Source of the DNA: Bradyrhizobium icense
GTDB taxonomy: Bacteria > Pseudomonadota > Alphaproteobacteria > Rhizobiales > Xanthobacteraceae
Length of the DNA: 64,000 nucleotides
Direction of reading: 5' to 3'
Assembly: GCF_001693385.1 (NCBI RefSeq)
Contig: NZ_CP016428.1
Location: 2,604,001 to 2,668,000, forward strand
Part shown: in pieces, positions 42,263 through 49,248 of the stretch
Layout of the letters: every line of letters begins with the position of its first letter
Position numbering within the stretch: position 1 is the first letter of the stretch
Translations under genes and position numbers: made by a program
Notes under the pieces: model-generated
What the model was told of the DNA's origin: nothing
The model's database searches: none
Seen by the model: only the letters and a program-made list of their open reading frames with translations

Positions 42263-42841
42263 GTGGCAGGAAGGATCACGTCCCCTGATTGTTCGAGATT
42301 CAGGGAAATAAGCAAAAATGCCCGCTCGCCCTCCAGCATGGTGCTCCGATCACGCCGCAACTGCTGTAAGCACGACAGTCCCTATTCGCCGGGGCAACTG
42401 GCGATGGGCAGCCGGAGGCGAGCCCCGCAGGCCATTGCTGAAAGCTAGGACCGCGGCCCAAGCTTATTAGTTTTTACGGATGGCTTAAGCCAAAGTCCGC
42501 GTTTGTGAAGGGTTTCGGATGCTGGCCGCTTGAAGGATGTCGCCGCGTGCTCGGCGGCCGGCGTCCGAAAGCCTCCAAGGGAGGAAACCGCGCTTAAGGG
42601 AACGTAAGGCGGTGCGGCAGGCGCTATGGGGATTTGAGTGCCGCGGGTGAGTTCGTATATTGAGATCGAGGCGGTCCAACGAGTCGTGCGACGGAGAGGC
42701 TGCTGACGAATGCGCGGCGGATAGCATCGAGCTCGACAAGTTGTCCGACGATTTGCGACGGCTGACGGATATCTGGGCGCGCTCTGCCGTGGCCGGTCGA
42801 GAGCCAGCGGCAACGGGCAGATTTGCTGGATTGCGGTACGG

Positions 42842-44041
42842 TCATGAGGTGTCGATCCTGATTACGGTCGCTGGAGCTGTCGGTCGATGCCGTGGCGCTG
42901 CACCGCGCGCAAAGACCTCGATGATGATCATCCGACCGCCACAGCATGGGCAGCTCGGCTTGCTGGAATCGACGGCAGCAGCGGAAGGCTGGCCCTCAGG
43001 TTTTGAGGCGCCGAGCAGCTCCCGCGCGCGGGCGATGTTGTCGGCGCAGGCGCTTTTGGCGAACAGGCCGTAGTGGCGGATGCGGTGCAAGCCTTTTGGC
43101 AGGACGTGGATGAGGAAGCGGCGGATGAACTCGTCGGTGGCGAGCGTCATCTGCTTGTATCGATCGCGGCCCTCGATACGGTAGTCCTTCCACTTGAAGG
43201 TGACGCCGCGTTCGTCGCAGGCGATCAGGCGGCTGTTGGCGATGGCAACGCGGTGGGTGTAGCGCGACAGATAGGCCAGCACCGCCGTAGGGCCGCTAAA
43301 CGGGCGCTTTGCGTAGACGACCCACTCGGCCTTGCGCAGCGGTGCGATATAAGCCGCGAAGGATTGCGCCTCGGCCAGATGGATGTCGTCGCCGAAGAAG
43401 CTCAGACGGCTGGCGGCGTGGGCGGCGACGAGCTTCTCCAGGAACAGTCGCCGGAACAGGCGGGAGAGCACGCGCACCGGGAGGAAGAATCCGGGCCGGC
43501 AAGATATCCAACTTTTGCCGTCGAACGAGATGCCGCCGCCCGGCACGATCATGTGCACATGGGGGTGATGGGTGAGCGCCGAGCCCCAGGTGTGCAGGAC
43601 GGAGGTGATGCCGATCCGGGCGCCGAGGTGCTTGGGGTCGGCGGCGATCGTCAGCATGGTCTCGGCGGAGACCTTGAACAGAATGTCGTAGATCGCCGCC
43701 TTGTTCCGATAGGCGATGTCAGCGACAGCCGCAGGCAGCGTGAACACCACGTGATAGTACGGCACTGGCAACAGCTCGGCCTCACGGTCGGCGAGCCAGT
43801 CCTTGGCGGCAGCGCCTTGGCACTTCGGGCAGTGCCGATTGCGGCAGGAGTTGTAGGCGATGGTGGTATAGGCGCAGTCCGCGCAGCGCGCGACATGGCC
43901 ACCGAGGGCCGCCGTGCGGCAGCGCTCGATTGCCGACATCACCTTCAGCTGGTCGAGGCTGATATGGCCGGCATGGACTTGGCGCCATGCCGGACCATGG
44001 CCGCGGAAGATATCCGCGACCTCCAGAGCCGGGCGCGACAT
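42842..44041 (-). CDS. IS91-like YxxxY HUH transposase (copy 1)
   Basis: 399 residues. N-terminal zinc-binding domain (CADCAYTTIAYNSCRNRHCP plus KCQ), then the HUH nuclease core with HPHVHMIVPGGGISFDG and two candidate catalytic tyrosines in YLSRYTHRVAIANSRL (YxxxY). A C-terminal CPCCGGRM knuckle is also present. This is the architecture of IS91/ISCR-type rolling-circle transposases. It lies 10 bp downstream of the recombinase gene, so both are probably co-transcribed. The encoded protein is identical to that of copy 2. Confidence 0.93.
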   Translation of the reverse strand: MSRPALEVADIFRGHGPAWRQVHAGHISLDQLKVMSAIERCRTAALGGHVARCADCAYTTIAYNSCRNRHCPKCQGAAAKDWLADREAELLPVPYYHVVFTLPAAVADIAYRNKAAIYDILFKVSAETMLTIAADPKHLGARIGITSVLHTWGSALTHHPHVHMIVPGGGISFDGKSWISCRPGFFLPVRVLSRLFRRLFLEKLVAAHAASRLSFFGDDIHLAEAQSFAAYIAPLRKAEWVVYAKRPFSGPTAVLAYLSRYTHRVAIANSRLIACDERGVTFKWKDYRIEGRDRYKQMTLATDEFIRRFLIHVLPKGLHRIRHYGLFAKSACADNIARARELLGASKPEGQPSAAAVDSSKPSCPCCGGRMIIIEVFARGAAPRHRPTAPATVIRIDTS

Positions 44042-44051
44042 ACGCGTCGTG

Positions 44052-44927
44052 TCAGCCGGGCGGCCGGACCTCCTTCAGCTTGAGCGCGATGTGCTCCAGC
44101 GGGCTCATGACCTCGCTGATCGTCTTGGTGGCTACCCGGGTATAGAGCGCGGTGGTGTCGAGCTTGGCGTGACCGAGCAGCACTTGAATGACGCGGACGT
44201 CGATGTTCTGCTCGAGCAGGTGGGTGGCGAAGCTGTGCCGCAAGGTATGCAGCGAGACGCGCTTGTTGATCTGCGCCATCTGGGCGGCGGCGTGGCAGGC
44301 GCGATTGAGCTGGCGCGTGGTCATCGGCTGGGCCGGATCGCGGCCGGGGAACAGCCAGCCCTGTGGCCGCGCCGCCTTCCACCAGTTCCGCAGCAGCTCG
44401 AGCAGGCTCGGCGACAGCATGACGTTCCGGTCCTTGCCGCCTTTGCCCTGTTCGACGCGGATGATCATGCGCTTACTGTCGATATCGGAGACCTTGAGCG
44501 AGACCACTTCGGTCGCACGCAGGCCGGCGCCATAGGCTACGCTCAGTGCCGCCTTGTACTTCAGCCCCGGCGCGGCATCGAGCAGCCTTGCCACCTCCTC
44601 GACGCTGAGCACCACCGGCAGCTTGCGCGGCTCGTGAATGACATGGGTATGCTCGACGATCTCGTGGCGCTTCAGCGTGACCCGAAAGAAGAACCGCAGG
44701 GTCGAGACGGTCTGATTGAGCGTCGGCACGCCAACGCCGCTCGCGGCCAGATGAAGCTGGTAGCGGCGCACGTCCTCGAAGCTCGCCGTATCGGGTGATC
44801 GCCCGAGAAATACAGCGAAGTTTTTGATCCTTTGCACGTAGTCATGTTGGGTCTTCGGCGCTAACTTGCGGATCGTCATGTCTTCGATCATGCGTCGGCG
44901 CAACGGGCTCATTGCCTCGTCGATCAT
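44052..44927 (-). CDS. Tyrosine recombinase of the IS91-like element (copy 1)
   Basis: 291 residues from ATG 44927 with a GGAGC ribosome-binding site; an in-frame TTG at 44975 would place the start inside a hairpin. SAM-like N-terminal domain (MTIRKLAPKTQHDYVQRIKN) and catalytic domain with Arg in YGAGLRATEVVSLKV, HTLRHSFATHLLE (HxxR) and LLGHAKLDTTALYTRV (His and nucleophile Tyr). Several IS91 relatives carry such an accessory integrase; its role in their transposition is not settled. Confidence 0.93.
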   Translation of the reverse strand: MIDEAMSPLRRRMIEDMTIRKLAPKTQHDYVQRIKNFAVFLGRSPDTASFEDVRRYQLHLAASGVGVPTLNQTVSTLRFFFRVTLKRHEIVEHTHVIHEPRKLPVVLSVEEVARLLDAAPGLKYKAALSVAYGAGLRATEVVSLKVSDIDSKRMIIRVEQGKGGKDRNVMLSPSLLELLRNWWKAARPQGWLFPGRDPAQPMTTRQLNRACHAAAQMAQINKRVSLHTLRHSFATHLLEQNIDVRVIQVLLGHAKLDTTALYTRVATKTISEVMSPLEHIALKLKEVRPPG

Positions 44928-44936
44928 GGGGATGCT

Positions 44937-44981
44937 CCTGCCTTGAGTGAGGTTGTCGACACCCCTCAATCTCAAGGCAGG
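44937..44981. promoter_or_regulatory. Long hairpin at the recombinase leader (copy 1)
   Basis: Perfect 11-bp arms CCTGCCTTGAG (44937-44947) and CTCAAGGCAGG (44971-44981), extended inward by TGAGG (44948-44952) and CCTCA (44964-44968), with a 2-nt bulge and an 11-nt loop. It lies 10 bp upstream of the recombinase ATG, within the terIS-side end of the element. It could be an end-recognition structure for the HUH protein or a leader hairpin limiting recombinase expression. Confidence 0.6.
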
Positions 44982-45082
44982 ACGCCCTATTGCGCTATCG
45001 TCTGGGCTCCGCTGCCAGCCGTCGTGCCCTACCGCGCGAGCGGTTTAGTCCTTTGTGCATTAGGCGATTGTGACAACGGAGA

Positions 45083-45850
45083 ATGCCCGTGGCTGCCGGT
45101 TCCAGCAAAACCGCCGTCCTCTATCGGATGGTGATGCCCGACCATATCTGTCCGTTCGGGCTGAAGTCGCTCGATTTGCTGCAGCGCGAAGGGTATGAGG
45201 TCGAAGATCACCTCCTTGAGACGCGCGCGGAAACCGATCGTTTCAAGGCAGGGCAGCACGTGGACGCGACGCCACAGACCTTCATCGGCGGCCGACGGAT
45301 CGGCGGCTATGACGATCTGCTTCGTCACTTCGGCAAGTCCGTAGCGCAGCCTTATTTGGCCTATCAGCCGGTGATTGCCGTATTTGGCACGGCGGCGCTG
45401 ATGGCGCTGGCGGCGAGTTGGGGGGTAGGCGGCACAGCGTTGAGCGTGCGCACCGTAGAGTGGCTCATCGCCTTCAGTATGTGCATCCTCGCGATACTCA
45501 AACTGCGCGACTTGGAGAGCTTTTCGACCATGTTTCTCGGCTACGATCTGCTAGCGCAGCGTGTCGTGCGATATGCCTACGTGTATCCGTTCGCCGAGGC
45601 TGTCGCTGGCATTTTGATGATCGCCGGCGCGCTACTGTGGGTCGCTGTGCCCATTGCGCTGTTTATCGGGACGATCGGCGCCGTTTCTGTTTTCAAGGCG
45701 GTCTATGTCGATAAGCGCGAACTGAAATGTGCCTGCGTCGGCGGCGACAGTAATGTGCCGCTCGGGTTCATTTCTCTGACCGAAAACCTGATGATGGTAG
45801 CGATGGCGATCTGGATGATCGTCAAATCGATACGGCCGGACGGATTGTAA
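45083..45850 (+). CDS. Glutaredoxin - MauE/DoxX-like membrane fusion protein
   Basis: 255 residues (ATG 45083; GTG 45089 has better spacing from the GGAGA at 45078-45082). The first ~85 residues form a glutaredoxin fold with the active-site motif CPFG (HICPFGLKSLDLLQREGYEV) and the cis-Pro/GG elements ATPQTFIGGRRIGGYDDLL. Four membrane helices follow, MauE/DoxX-like (EWLIAFSMCILAILKLRDLE; YVYPFAEAVAGILMIAGALL), with a Cys pair in KRELKCACVGGDSNVPLGFI. Probably a membrane thiol-redox protein. It lies between the two IS91-like copies with a DUF305 gene, a pairing I associate with metal-handling islands. Confidence 0.85.
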   Translation: MPVAAGSSKTAVLYRMVMPDHICPFGLKSLDLLQREGYEVEDHLLETRAETDRFKAGQHVDATPQTFIGGRRIGGYDDLLRHFGKSVAQPYLAYQPVIAVFGTAALMALAASWGVGGTALSVRTVEWLIAFSMCILAILKLRDLESFSTMFLGYDLLAQRVVRYAYVYPFAEAVAGILMIAGALLWVAVPIALFIGTIGAVSVFKAVYVDKRELKCACVGGDSNVPLGFISLTENLMMVAMAIWMIVKSIRPDGL

Positions 45851-45955
45851 CTACGAGGCTTTGGAGTTCTAGTCCGTACTAGGAGCCTATCCGGGGGCGG
45901 AACTATTGAGCGGCACTCGCACACTTATCCTTCTAAACCCGGAGGAGCTTCTCGG

Positions 45956-46447
45956 ATGTCTTACGGACGCTTCGCTGCCATGATCGCGGCTTCTACGGTG
46001 ATGATGTTCGGCCTGATGTATCTTAATACATTCTCGGCGGATCATATTTGGTACAGTCAAACGCGAGCCTGGATGGCGCTTTTGATGGGAGCTGTGATGG
46101 CAGTAGTCATGCTGAGCTTCATGTGGAGCATGTATAAGAGCCGAACAGCAAATGTCGCCATTTTGGTTGCCTGCATTGCTGTATTTTGCGTCTCGCTGTG
46201 GCTGGTACGCAGCCAAGAGACCGTATACGATGTTTCCTACATGAAAGCCATGATCCCGCACCACTCGATTGCTGTTCTCACGAGCGAAAGAGCGCATATT
46301 CGAGACTCGCGCGTCCGCAAGTTGGCGGATAGCATCATTGAGGCCCAGGTTAGAGAGATCGGCGAAATGAAGAGTCTAATAGCTGATCTTGAAGCAAACC
46401 CGCCGCCATCGAACGCCAAGGACTTGCCACCGCGGTCGCCAAAGTGA
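45956..46447 (+). CDS. DUF305 membrane protein
   Basis: 163 residues with a GGAGGAG ribosome-binding site. Three N-terminal membrane helices (MIAASTVMMFGLMYLNTFSA; AWMALLMGAVMAVVMLSFMW; VAILVACIAVFCVSLWLV) precede a C-terminal DUF305 helical domain with DVSYMKAMIPHHSIAVLTSE and a Met/His-rich face, a ferritin-like bundle often linked to copper or other metal resistance. It is cargo between the IS91-like copies, 105 bp after the glutaredoxin fusion and likely in the same operon. Confidence 0.88.
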   Translation: MSYGRFAAMIAASTVMMFGLMYLNTFSADHIWYSQTRAWMALLMGAVMAVVMLSFMWSMYKSRTANVAILVACIAVFCVSLWLVRSQETVYDVSYMKAMIPHHSIAVLTSERAHIRDSRVRKLADSIIEAQVREIGEMKSLIADLEANPPPSNAKDLPPRSPK

Positions 46448-46885
46448 GATGTCGCTTCTTTGCCCTTAGCCGAATAGCGCTCAGCCGTCGTCACGTCGGC
46501 TGTCAGGGGTGAACCGGACGTCGTCCACGTTCGCGTCCACCCGTTTTTGTGAAGGGTTTCGGATGCTGGCCGCTTGAAGGATGTCGCCGCGTGCTCGGCG
46601 GCCGGCGTCCGAAAGCCTCCAAGGGAGGAAACCGCGCTTAAGGGAACGTAAGGCGGTGCGGCAGGCGCTATGGGGATTTGAGTGCCGCGGGTGAGTTCGT
46701 TGATTGAGATCGAGGCGGTCCAACGAGTCGTGCGACGGAGAGGCCGCTGACGAATGCGCGGCGGATAGCATCGAGCTCGACAAGTTGTCCGACGATTTGC
46801 GACGGCTGACGGATATCTGGGCGCGCTCTGCCGTGGCCGGTCGAGAGCCAGCGGCAACGGGCAGATTTGCTGGATTGCGGTACGG

Positions 46886-48085
46886 TCATGAGGTGTCGAT
46901 CCTGATTACGGTCGCTGGAGCTGTCGGTCGATGCCGTGGCGCTGCACCGCGCGCAAAGACCTCGATGATGATCATCCGACCGCCACAGCATGGGCAGCTC
47001 GGCTTGCTGGAATCGACGGCAGCAGCGGAAGGCTGGCCCTCAGGTTTTGAGGCGCCGAGCAGCTCCCGCGCGCGGGCGATGTTGTCGGCGCAGGCGCTTT
47101 TGGCGAACAGGCCGTAGTGGCGGATGCGGTGCAAGCCTTTTGGCAGGACGTGGATGAGGAAGCGGCGGATGAACTCGTCGGTGGCGAGCGTCATCTGCTT
47201 GTATCGATCGCGGCCCTCGATACGGTAGTCCTTCCACTTGAAGGTGACGCCGCGTTCGTCGCAGGCGATCAGGCGGCTGTTGGCGATGGCAACGCGGTGG
47301 GTGTAGCGCGACAGATAGGCCAGCACCGCCGTAGGGCCGCTAAACGGGCGCTTTGCGTAGACGACCCACTCGGCCTTGCGCAGCGGTGCGATATAAGCCG
47401 CGAAGGATTGCGCCTCGGCCAGATGGATGTCGTCGCCGAAGAAGCTCAGACGGCTGGCGGCGTGGGCGGCGACGAGCTTCTCCAGGAACAGTCGCCGGAA
47501 CAGGCGGGAGAGCACGCGCACCGGGAGGAAGAATCCGGGCCGGCAAGATATCCAACTTTTGCCGTCGAACGAGATGCCGCCGCCCGGCACGATCATGTGC
47601 ACATGGGGGTGATGGGTGAGCGCCGAGCCCCAGGTGTGCAGGACGGAGGTGATGCCGATCCGGGCGCCGAGGTGCTTGGGGTCGGCGGCGATCGTCAGCA
47701 TGGTCTCGGCGGAGACCTTGAACAGAATGTCGTAGATCGCCGCCTTGTTCCGATAGGCGATGTCAGCGACAGCCGCAGGCAGCGTGAACACCACGTGATA
47801 GTACGGCACTGGCAACAGCTCGGCCTCACGGTCGGCGAGCCAGTCCTTGGCGGCAGCGCCTTGGCACTTCGGGCAGTGCCGATTGCGGCAGGAGTTGTAG
47901 GCGATGGTGGTATAGGCGCAGTCCGCGCAGCGCGCGACATGGCCACCGAGGGCCGCCGTGCGGCAGCGCTCGATTGCCGACATCACCTTCAGCTGGTCGA
48001 GGCTGATATGGCCGGCATGGACTTGGCGCCATGCCGGACCATGGCCGCGGAAGATATCCGCGACCTCCAGAGCCGGGCGCGACAT
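46886..48085 (-). CDS. IS91-like YxxxY HUH transposase (copy 2)
   Basis: 399 residues, identical in sequence to the product of 42842-44041: zinc-binding N-terminus, HPHVHMIVPGGG HUH motif, YLSRYTHR tyrosine motif and CPCCGGRM C-terminal knuckle. Intact, so both copies could supply transposase. Confidence 0.93.
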   Translation of the reverse strand: MSRPALEVADIFRGHGPAWRQVHAGHISLDQLKVMSAIERCRTAALGGHVARCADCAYTTIAYNSCRNRHCPKCQGAAAKDWLADREAELLPVPYYHVVFTLPAAVADIAYRNKAAIYDILFKVSAETMLTIAADPKHLGARIGITSVLHTWGSALTHHPHVHMIVPGGGISFDGKSWISCRPGFFLPVRVLSRLFRRLFLEKLVAAHAASRLSFFGDDIHLAEAQSFAAYIAPLRKAEWVVYAKRPFSGPTAVLAYLSRYTHRVAIANSRLIACDERGVTFKWKDYRIEGRDRYKQMTLATDEFIRRFLIHVLPKGLHRIRHYGLFAKSACADNIARARELLGASKPEGQPSAAAVDSSKPSCPCCGGRMIIIEVFARGAAPRHRPTAPATVIRIDTS

Positions 48086-48095
48086 ACGCGTCGTG

Positions 48096-48971
48096 TCAGC
48101 CGGGCGGCCGGACCTCCTTCAGCTTGAGCGCGATGTGCTCCAGCGGGCTCATGACCTCGCTGATCGTCTTGGTGGCTACCCGGGTATAGAGCGCGGTGGT
48201 GTCGAGCTTGGCGTGACCGAGCAGCACTTGAATGACGCGGACGTCGATGTTCTGCTCGAGCAGGTGGGTGGCGAAGCTGTGCCGCAAGGTATGCAGCGAG
48301 ACGCGCTTGTTGATCTGCGCCATCTGGGCGGCGGCGTGGCAGGCGCGATTGAGCTGGCGCGTGGTCATCGGCTGGGCCGGATCGCGGCCGGGGAACAGCC
48401 AGCCCTGTGGCCGCGCCGCCTTCCACCAGTTCCGCAGCAGCTCGAGCAGGCTCGGCGACAGCATGACGTTCCGGTCCTTGCCGCCTTTGCCCTGTTCGAC
48501 GCGGATGATCATGCGCTTACTGTCGATATCGGAGACCTTGAGCGAGACCACTTCGGTCGCACGCAGGCCGGCGCCATAGGCTACGCTCAGTGCCGCCTTG
48601 TACTTCAGCCCCGGCGCGGCATCGAGCAGCCTTGCCACCTCCTCGACGCTGAGCACCACCGGCAGCTTGCGCGGCTCGTGAATGACATGGGTATGCTCGA
48701 CGATCTCGTGGCGCTTCAGCGTGACCCGAAAGAAGAACCGCAGGGTCGAGACGGTCTGATTGAGCGTCGGCACGCCAACGCCGCTCGCGGCCAGATGAAG
48801 CTGGTAGCGGCGCACGTCCTCGAAGCTCGCCGTATCGGGTGATCGCCCGAGAAATACAGCGAAGTTTTTGATCCTTTGCACGTAGTCATGTTGGGTCTTC
48901 GGCGCTAACTTGCGGATCGTCATGTCTTCGATCATGCGTCGGCGCAACGGGCTCATTGCCTCGTCGATCAT
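48096..48971 (-). CDS. Tyrosine recombinase of the IS91-like element (copy 2)
   Basis: 291 residues, identical to the copy-1 recombinase, from ATG 48971, 10 bp upstream of the transposase gene. Arg, HxxR, His and Tyr catalytic positions are all present. Confidence 0.93.
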   Translation of the reverse strand: MIDEAMSPLRRRMIEDMTIRKLAPKTQHDYVQRIKNFAVFLGRSPDTASFEDVRRYQLHLAASGVGVPTLNQTVSTLRFFFRVTLKRHEIVEHTHVIHEPRKLPVVLSVEEVARLLDAAPGLKYKAALSVAYGAGLRATEVVSLKVSDIDSKRMIIRVEQGKGGKDRNVMLSPSLLELLRNWWKAARPQGWLFPGRDPAQPMTTRQLNRACHAAAQMAQINKRVSLHTLRHSFATHLLEQNIDVRVIQVLLGHAKLDTTALYTRVATKTISEVMSPLEHIALKLKEVRPPG

Positions 48972-48980
48972 GGGGATGCT

Positions 48981-49025
48981 CCTGCCTTGAGTGAGGTTGT
49001 CGACACCCCTCAATCTCAAGGCAGG
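48981..49025. promoter_or_regulatory. Long hairpin at the recombinase leader (copy 2)
   Basis: Same structure as at 44937-44981: 11-bp perfect arms (48981-48991 and 49015-49025) with a nested 5-bp stem. Confidence 0.6.
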
Positions 49026-49248
49026 ACGCCCTATTGCGCTATCGTCTGGGCTCCGCTGCCAGCCGTCGTGCCCTACCGCGCGAGCGGTTTAGTCCTGTGA
49101 TCCACTGCGGACCTTCGCCGCCGAACTGCCCCCATCGGCGCGCTCTGGGCCAATTTCTATCGATGTAGGGACTGCGGCAACATGCTTGGGTCGGGCCTCG
49201 CCTCGATTGCAAAGGGCCGCTCAATGGGTGCCGTCTGCATCTGACTCC

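Follow-up and report, generated by a model that had tools for sequence, protein, structure and literature searches.

A two-sided target site and a dinucleotide footprint for an IS91-like element encoding a tyrosine recombinase, found as a close pair in Bradyrhizobium icense

The stretch analyzed here, referred to as the window, comprises 64,000 nucleotides of Bradyrhizobium icense (contig NZ_CP016428.1, positions 2,604,001 to 2,668,000) and contains two direct copies of an IS91-like element, each encoding an HUH transposase and a tyrosine recombinase. By analogy with IS91, the low-coordinate end of the element, 3' of tnpA, is called ori and the high-coordinate end ter. Alignments of these copies with relatives in other genomes show a two-sided insertion site, two variable bases (NN) outside either end of the element, and a ter NN that matches the ori NN of sister copies; in two cases the ori NN is likewise shown to come from the target. 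The gene pair itself is already in print as an association, and what appears to be new is the definition of the ends, the two-sided target and the footprint. For the pair in the window we lean slightly towards sequential insertions of a single element in which the donor's ori NN passes to the ter end of the daughter, with copy 2 as the likely parent.

Ends, target site and dinucleotide footprint

Alignment of many copies delimits an invariant element that runs from TGTGAAGG to TTTAGTCC, with NN outside either end. Logos constructed from 146 ori and 47 ter flanks give the target layout as ANGTCCGCT-NN / element / NN-TGGCCC-NN-AGCGGACNT. Near-identical flanks were dropped prior to counting, reducing the ori set from 148 to 146 and the ter set from 58 to 47; among the 146 ori flanks are those of both copies in the window, 20 that stem from small hairpin units and 30 belonging to stretches L209-L235, for which record titles are not listed. 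In this set C is found at position -7 in 140 flanks, G at -5 in 117 and T at -3 in 116, and directly after NN at the ter end T and G are each present in 46 of 47 flanks. Removal of the 20 hairpin-unit flanks left these proportions at 121/126 for C, 104/126 for G and 101/126 for T. The ori consensus also holds in 33 flanks of listed non-Bradyrhizobium records (Bosea, Xanthobacter, Microvirga and Rhizobium among them) and is unchanged in the 29 of these that are without hairpins. At sites where both ends could be read, TG lies directly 3' of the ter dinucleotide in 74 of 76.

When the two target halves are joined without the element they form an imperfect palindrome of 11 + 6 + 11 bases, with the insertion point between the left 11 and the central six. 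A folded-hairpin target was considered and is unsupported, since no covariation is seen between the two halves (5.14 of 9 positions paired vs. 5.00 when shuffled, p = 0.10). The consensus palindrome TGTCCGCTNNTGGCCCNNNGCGGACNT has no match in the host genome with up to 3 mismatches allowed. Some right halves are the start of a discrete dispersed repeat of ~107 bp, indicating that a small resident repeat can serve as target, with the element entering at its left edge. This repeat runs from TGGCCCATCGCGACATATTG to GGGTTTATAGGTACACGGCCT, is often preceded by sequence resembling the left target half, and is found at L242, L341, L327, L340, L309, L328, L316, L310, L315 and other loci; it is possibly a small non-autonomous unit that uses the element's target. 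Another class of small units has the ori end inverted at both sides (L135, L144, L156, L158, L168, L185, L194, L200, L213, L218, L221 and L230); these resemble repetitive extragenic palindrome (REP) hairpins, are related to the ori end of the element, and measured 71-77 bp in eight cases.

The footprint is most readily followed in clonal families, where copies are nearly or wholly identical. The seven copies in G090 are at most 1 base apart yet carry 6 ori and 4 ter dinucleotides; the nine copies in G219, with at most 1 difference, carry 4 ori and 3 ter dinucleotides, as do the seven identical copies in G191. Since both dinucleotides vary between identical copies, neither can be a fixed part of the element. 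Across nine clonal families, five being pairs, the ter NN equals the ori NN of a sister copy in 34 of 40 copies. Permuting the ter NN across copies gave a mean of 19.8 and never reached 34 in 20,000 trials. The converse match, of an ori NN to a sister's ter NN, was found in 26 of 40 copies (16.3 expected, reached in 3 of 20,000 trials). Misses number at most one per family, the pattern that one founder (root) per family would give. The uncommon dinucleotide CA illustrates the rule in G191, where it is the ori NN of two copies and the ter NN of four. The family in G237 was counted as seven copies with at most 1 mismatch each to L267, leaving out L266 (74 mismatches) and L274 (12), and an eighth G191 copy (313 differences) was also left out; L252 and L255, both in G191, have a common left flank and are not fully independent. 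As a control, an IS91-family element that lacks the recombinase was read at seven plasmid loci, among which the right flank takes 5 different forms and the left flank 4. At ori this element directly adjoins GAAC, CAAG or GCAC, a variable dinucleotide being absent, and these seven loci have no evident common sequence at the flank opposite ori; one of the control stretches has a separate "recombinase family protein" lying outside the element.

Joined flanks served to look for empty sites among the relatives of G191, G090 and G219, in a set of 31 genomes for each, with nine candidates scored per genome. Two clean cases matching both flanks were obtained, at the L241 and L255 sites, and in each the NN of the empty site is the ori NN. 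The G061 orthologue of the G090 site reads TC, the corresponding copy having TC at ori and TA at ter, and a G191 paralogue reads AT, the corresponding copy having AT at ori and CA at ter. These two sites explain flanks without a target-site duplication. Of the partial matches, that at the L237 site covers the right flank only, with a 1-bp insertion at the junction, and a left-flank-only match at the L238 site (85%) reads GG, which is the ori NN.

Several observations weigh against this reading of the footprint. The left-flank-only match at the L239 site (91%) reads TT, where the copy has TC at ori and TT at ter, and left-flank-only matches at the L248 site read TG, GA and AT in three genomes (95, 88 and 85%), where the copy has TA at ori and TG at ter; two of these four disagreeing matches thus equal the ter NN. 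Six of the 40 ter dinucleotides have no match among the ori dinucleotides of their sisters, TT and TC are common and dilute the test, and the footprint measures 2 nt (or up to 4, TG being shared), while tyrosine recombinases usually exchange 6-8 bp. All of the left-flank-only matches have different right sides, the L248 flank is itself repeated, and four further L248 matches (L345, L347, L348 and L353) contain no recognizable site. The left-flank-only matches may represent different copies of repeats and not orthologues, yet they weaken the case, and their mixed readings lowered our confidence in the overall interpretation by a small step, to slightly better than even. On balance, the target's NN appears to stay at ori and the donor's ori NN to arrive at ter.

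A proposed two-enzyme pathway and single-enzyme alternatives

Both genes of the element lie on the minus strand, with that for the tyrosine recombinase preceding that for the transposase. The copy 1 transposase, which was the one scanned, matches PF04986 (4e-67), PF14319 (1e-32) and NF033538 (426.7 bits against a cut-off of 125), and combines the HUH/Y2 transposase with the zinc-binding N-terminus by which the IS91 family is recognized. The recombinase matches PF00589 and contains the catalytic motifs; against the integron integrase model TIGR02249 it scores 194 bits, below the cut-off of 265.

Under the pathway proposed here, insertion would take place between the half-sites ANGTCCGCT-NN and TGGCCC-NN-AGCGGACNT, and in this genus the right half can coincide with the beginning of a small resident repeat. 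The donor strand would be cut 5' of the NN beside ori and copied out up to TTTAGTCC at ter, and the ends would be joined as TTTAGTCC-NN(donor ori)-TGTGAAGG, presumably giving a circular intermediate. This junction would then be inserted at NN^TG of the target, such that the new copy would take its ori NN from the target and its ter NN from the ori of the donor. The footprint rule calls for two cut positions two bases apart, one in an outward and one in an inward step, and because the element encodes two strand-transfer enzymes, the HUH enzyme is proposed to perform the copy-out and the tyrosine recombinase the paste-in. The initial annotation had suggested that the recombinase might resolve or integrate a circle, and the integration part of that suggestion gains indirect support from the footprint rule. 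We put the full scheme forward tentatively, at somewhat less than even odds: HUH rolling-circle copy-out, recombinase-mediated pasting into a bipartite Xer-like target, and a two-base record of the parent site. Were it general, such a pathway would account for the coupling of IS91 and XerD genes recorded across many phyla and would make insertion pedigrees readable from sequence; the two-sided target and the heritable two-base footprint together constitute a testable model of recombinase function.

The HUH transposase could instead both excise and insert the element, using a shifted cut, with the recombinase resolving dimers or being a passenger. This is a rather unlikely arrangement, although a review, in the part of its text available, ascribes IS91 transposition to the IS91 transposase (PMC5714925), and GTCC, which is common to the target half GTCCGCT and to TTTAGTCC at ter, might be an HUH cut motif. 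A single cut position predicts a fixed or target-derived ter NN, whereas identical copies differ in their ter NN, which is also absent from the two empty sites matched on both flanks. The recombinase-less control is moreover without a footprint, and the representatives of the eight other clonal families keep both genes stop-free, the recombinase match of L264 being in two pieces.

The reverse assignment is unlikely. In it the tyrosine recombinase alone would exchange strands both ways, as in strand-biased circularizing elements (SEs) and Tn554, and the role of the HUH protein would be limited to replication of the element. The 11-6-11 layout of the target resembles that of dif, the Xer core site, with insertion bordering the central 6 bp, and transfer of bases from donor left to recipient right is the rule described for recombinase-only elements in the literature text available. 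The footprint is nevertheless 2 bp rather than 6, and the element has a complete HUH transposase along with an ori-end inverted repeat that the families compared retain.

The pair in the window

The initial annotation described near-identical direct copies with a 4,044-bp period, encoding identical HUH transposases and identical tyrosine recombinases, with glutaredoxin-MauE-like and DUF305 genes between them, and this description proved accurate (Table 1). Base-by-base comparison of the copies gave 3 mismatches in 2,551 bases (at 42657, 42658 and 42701) at an offset of exactly 4,044, with the identity ending abruptly at either end. The host genome is a single 8.32-Mb contig with six PF04986 matches, of which only the two in the window are complete and stop-free; element copies elsewhere in this genome are truncated or internally deleted. 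A collapsed repeat is made less likely by the single contig, the unique DNA between the copies and the presence of three differences. Copy 1 has the derived base at each of the three, and the TT at the ori end of copy 2 equals the TT at the ter end of copy 1, from which copy 2 is likely the parent and copy 1 the daughter.

The best reading of the locus is that the genes between the copies are resident and that the pair represents two insertions into neighboring target sites. This reading draws on an uninserted left flank, a dispersed-repeat target and cargo homologues that lack the element. The left flank of copy 1 is found without an element in G235 and G236, where it reads TT-TGGCAC and then continues into right sides unlike each other and unlike the window; the TT in these genomes does not discriminate between ori and ter NN. 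The repeat abutting the ori end of copy 2 runs on uninserted in 6 of the 7 loci read (e.g., CTTTTGACCC), and at the seventh, in G219, it is occupied by an element copy. The same genome provides a parallel for the pair, in that two identical copies lie 1.29 kb apart and each is flanked by its own half-sites. DNA of the middle region was matched in 87 of 265 genus genomes, many only in the terminal dispersed repeat, and, with the two best candidates scored per genome, no gene-length match above 81% identity was found outside the host genome. The element is absent from all 11 fetched loci (~3-4 kb each) containing homologues of the middle genes, and is not found near three of these over 10-12 kb. 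In G092 the homologues are adjacent to each other and the element is absent.

The half-site scores count against two separate insertions. Relative to 74 other sites, the inner half-sites are weak, with -1.6 at copy 1 ter (5th percentile) and -3.4 at copy 2 ori (4th percentile), and the outer ones score well, with 9.05 and 13.0; one joint insertion would give likewise. Such an insertion was the proposal of the initial annotation, which viewed the locus as a composite rolling-circle unit carrying redox and metal genes. Either copy 1 and the middle genes would move by read-through of ter, or element, cargo and element would enter one target together. The geometric part of that claim holds, as the orientation of the copies permits it and read-through past the ter end of copy 1 would include the middle DNA. 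As an account of the pair, however, the composite unit is improbable and goes unsupported: two relatives have the left flank of copy 1 but no element there, copy 2 stands at a point of a dispersed repeat that is uninserted in six loci and occupied by another copy in the seventh, the homologous loci described above lack the element, and the close pair in G219 has separate half-sites. The two-sided target and footprint also argue against reading this pair as a composite transposon. Recombination between the direct repeats could release a 4,044-bp circle. Integration of such a circle of element and cargo into an older resident copy is compatible with the atypical inner junctions and with the old element at the 1.83-Mb paralogue, which suggests that this site, too, may formerly have held an older copy. 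It is nevertheless very improbable: the copies are 99.9% identical, only copy 1 has derived bases, no stretch of older sequence is present, and the 265 genus genomes, at two best candidates each, yielded no close second cargo locus. Sequential insertion from copy 2 as parent thus remains the preferred reading.

The left flank of copy 1 has a 95% paralogue at 1.83 Mb in the host genome that bears an older element at the corresponding site. At this site near glgE (42501; L061, L110 and L111) homology breaks at the half-site, and with a new element in the window, an old one in the paralogue and different right sides in G235 and G236, it looks like an insertion hotspot.

Table 1. Features of the element pair and intervening DNA (positions are those of the window)
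Feature	Position	Strand	Remarks
Copy 1, IS91-like element	42502..45052	-	invariant part 42504-45051, TGTGAAGG...TTTAGTCC
Copy 2, IS91-like element	46546..49096	-	invariant part 46548-49095; 3 mismatches vs. copy 1
Ori-end inverted repeat, copy 1	42504..42581	+	TGTGAAGGGTTTCGGATG ... CGTCCGAAAGCCTCCAAGG
Copy 1 HUH/Y2 transposase, IS91 family, 399 aa	42842..44041	-	HPHVH and YLSRY motifs
Copy 1 tyrosine recombinase, Xer/IntI-like, 307 aa	44052..44975	-	R, K, HxxR, LGH and Y motifs
Copy 2 HUH/Y2 transposase	46886..48085	-	protein identical to copy 1
Copy 2 tyrosine recombinase	48096..49019	-	protein identical to copy 1
Glutaredoxin-MauE protein, 255 aa	45083..45850	+	glutaredoxin models score below cut-off
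DUF305 protein, 163 aa	45956..46447	+	CopM-like match weak, below cut-off
Copy 1 ori-side target half AAGTCCGCG and NN = TT	42493..42503	+	strong match
Copy 1 ter-side NN = TT and right half TGTGCATTAGGCGATTG	45052..45070	+	weak match
Dispersed-repeat end abutting copy 2 ori, then NN = TT	46448..46547	+	weak position weight matrix score; repeat targeted in G219
Copy 2 ter-side NN = TG and right half TGATCCACTGCGGACCT	49096..49114	+	strong match

Relation to known systems and to other elements

The element shares with the IS91 family (IS91, IS1294 and ISCR) an HUH/Y2 transposase with a zinc-binding domain, an ori-end inverted repeat 3' of the gene, and the lack of a target duplication at the empty sites seen. 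It differs in its additional tyrosine recombinase, in having GTCCGCT-NN beside ori (146 flanks) in place of the GAAC/CAAG tetranucleotide, and in its ter end, where the NN after TTTAGTCC varies among identical copies in place of a fixed end. Members of the family carrying a second, integrase-like gene appear in IS catalogues. Similar gene pairs have been reported as 245 IS91-XerD couples in 15 phyla (PMC9208149) and as a tetX-catB11-IS91-XerD resistance cluster in Chryseobacterium (PMC11194056); the portions of these papers available describe the association only, with no ends, target or footprint. No account of the recombinase role, ends, target or footprint was found in open-access literature text, a body that does not cover ISfinder or TnPedia.

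The closest parallel to the footprint is provided by SE and Tn554-related elements, in which, according to the available text, 6 bp moves from donor left to recipient right and the target bases stay on the left (PMC10214605, PMC9345347). The element behaves alike in that donor-left bases are found at the recipient right, as seen in the 34 of 40 copies and the two both-flank empty sites. Against such a rule, the one-flank matches are mixed, with 1 agreeing and 4 not. In the same available text, SEs combine a 6-bp spacer with several recombination genes and have neither an HUH nor a DDE enzyme, whereas the element has 2 nt, one recombinase and one HUH protein. Insertion at dispersed palindromic repeats is also known from IS elements that target repetitive extragenic palindromes (PMC1525189); these belong to other IS families and genomes, and in the portion of that paper available IS91 figures only in a table entry and Bradyrhizobium is not mentioned.

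Divergence from the window's proteins is uneven between families: L250 has a transposase of 88.7% and a recombinase of 71.0% identity, and L073 has a transposase of 79.0% and a recombinase of 94.1% identity, suggesting an exchange of modules. More distant subgroups (L089-L105, 67-68% identity) keep the gene pair and have other ends (GAATCTTGAGGG in the larger group), with a target context of a conserved GAATC ~23 bp outside (upstream of) the ori end, often with GG|CC. The footprint rule could not be read in these subgroups, and they were left out of the counts. In the host genome itself, an old copy (L042, 1833500-1841600) spans 5.9 kb from its ori end to its ter end, with other open reading frames in the interval, and two internally deleted derivatives (2478716-2479481 and 1812307-1813817) retain both ends and resemble miniature inverted-repeat transposable elements.

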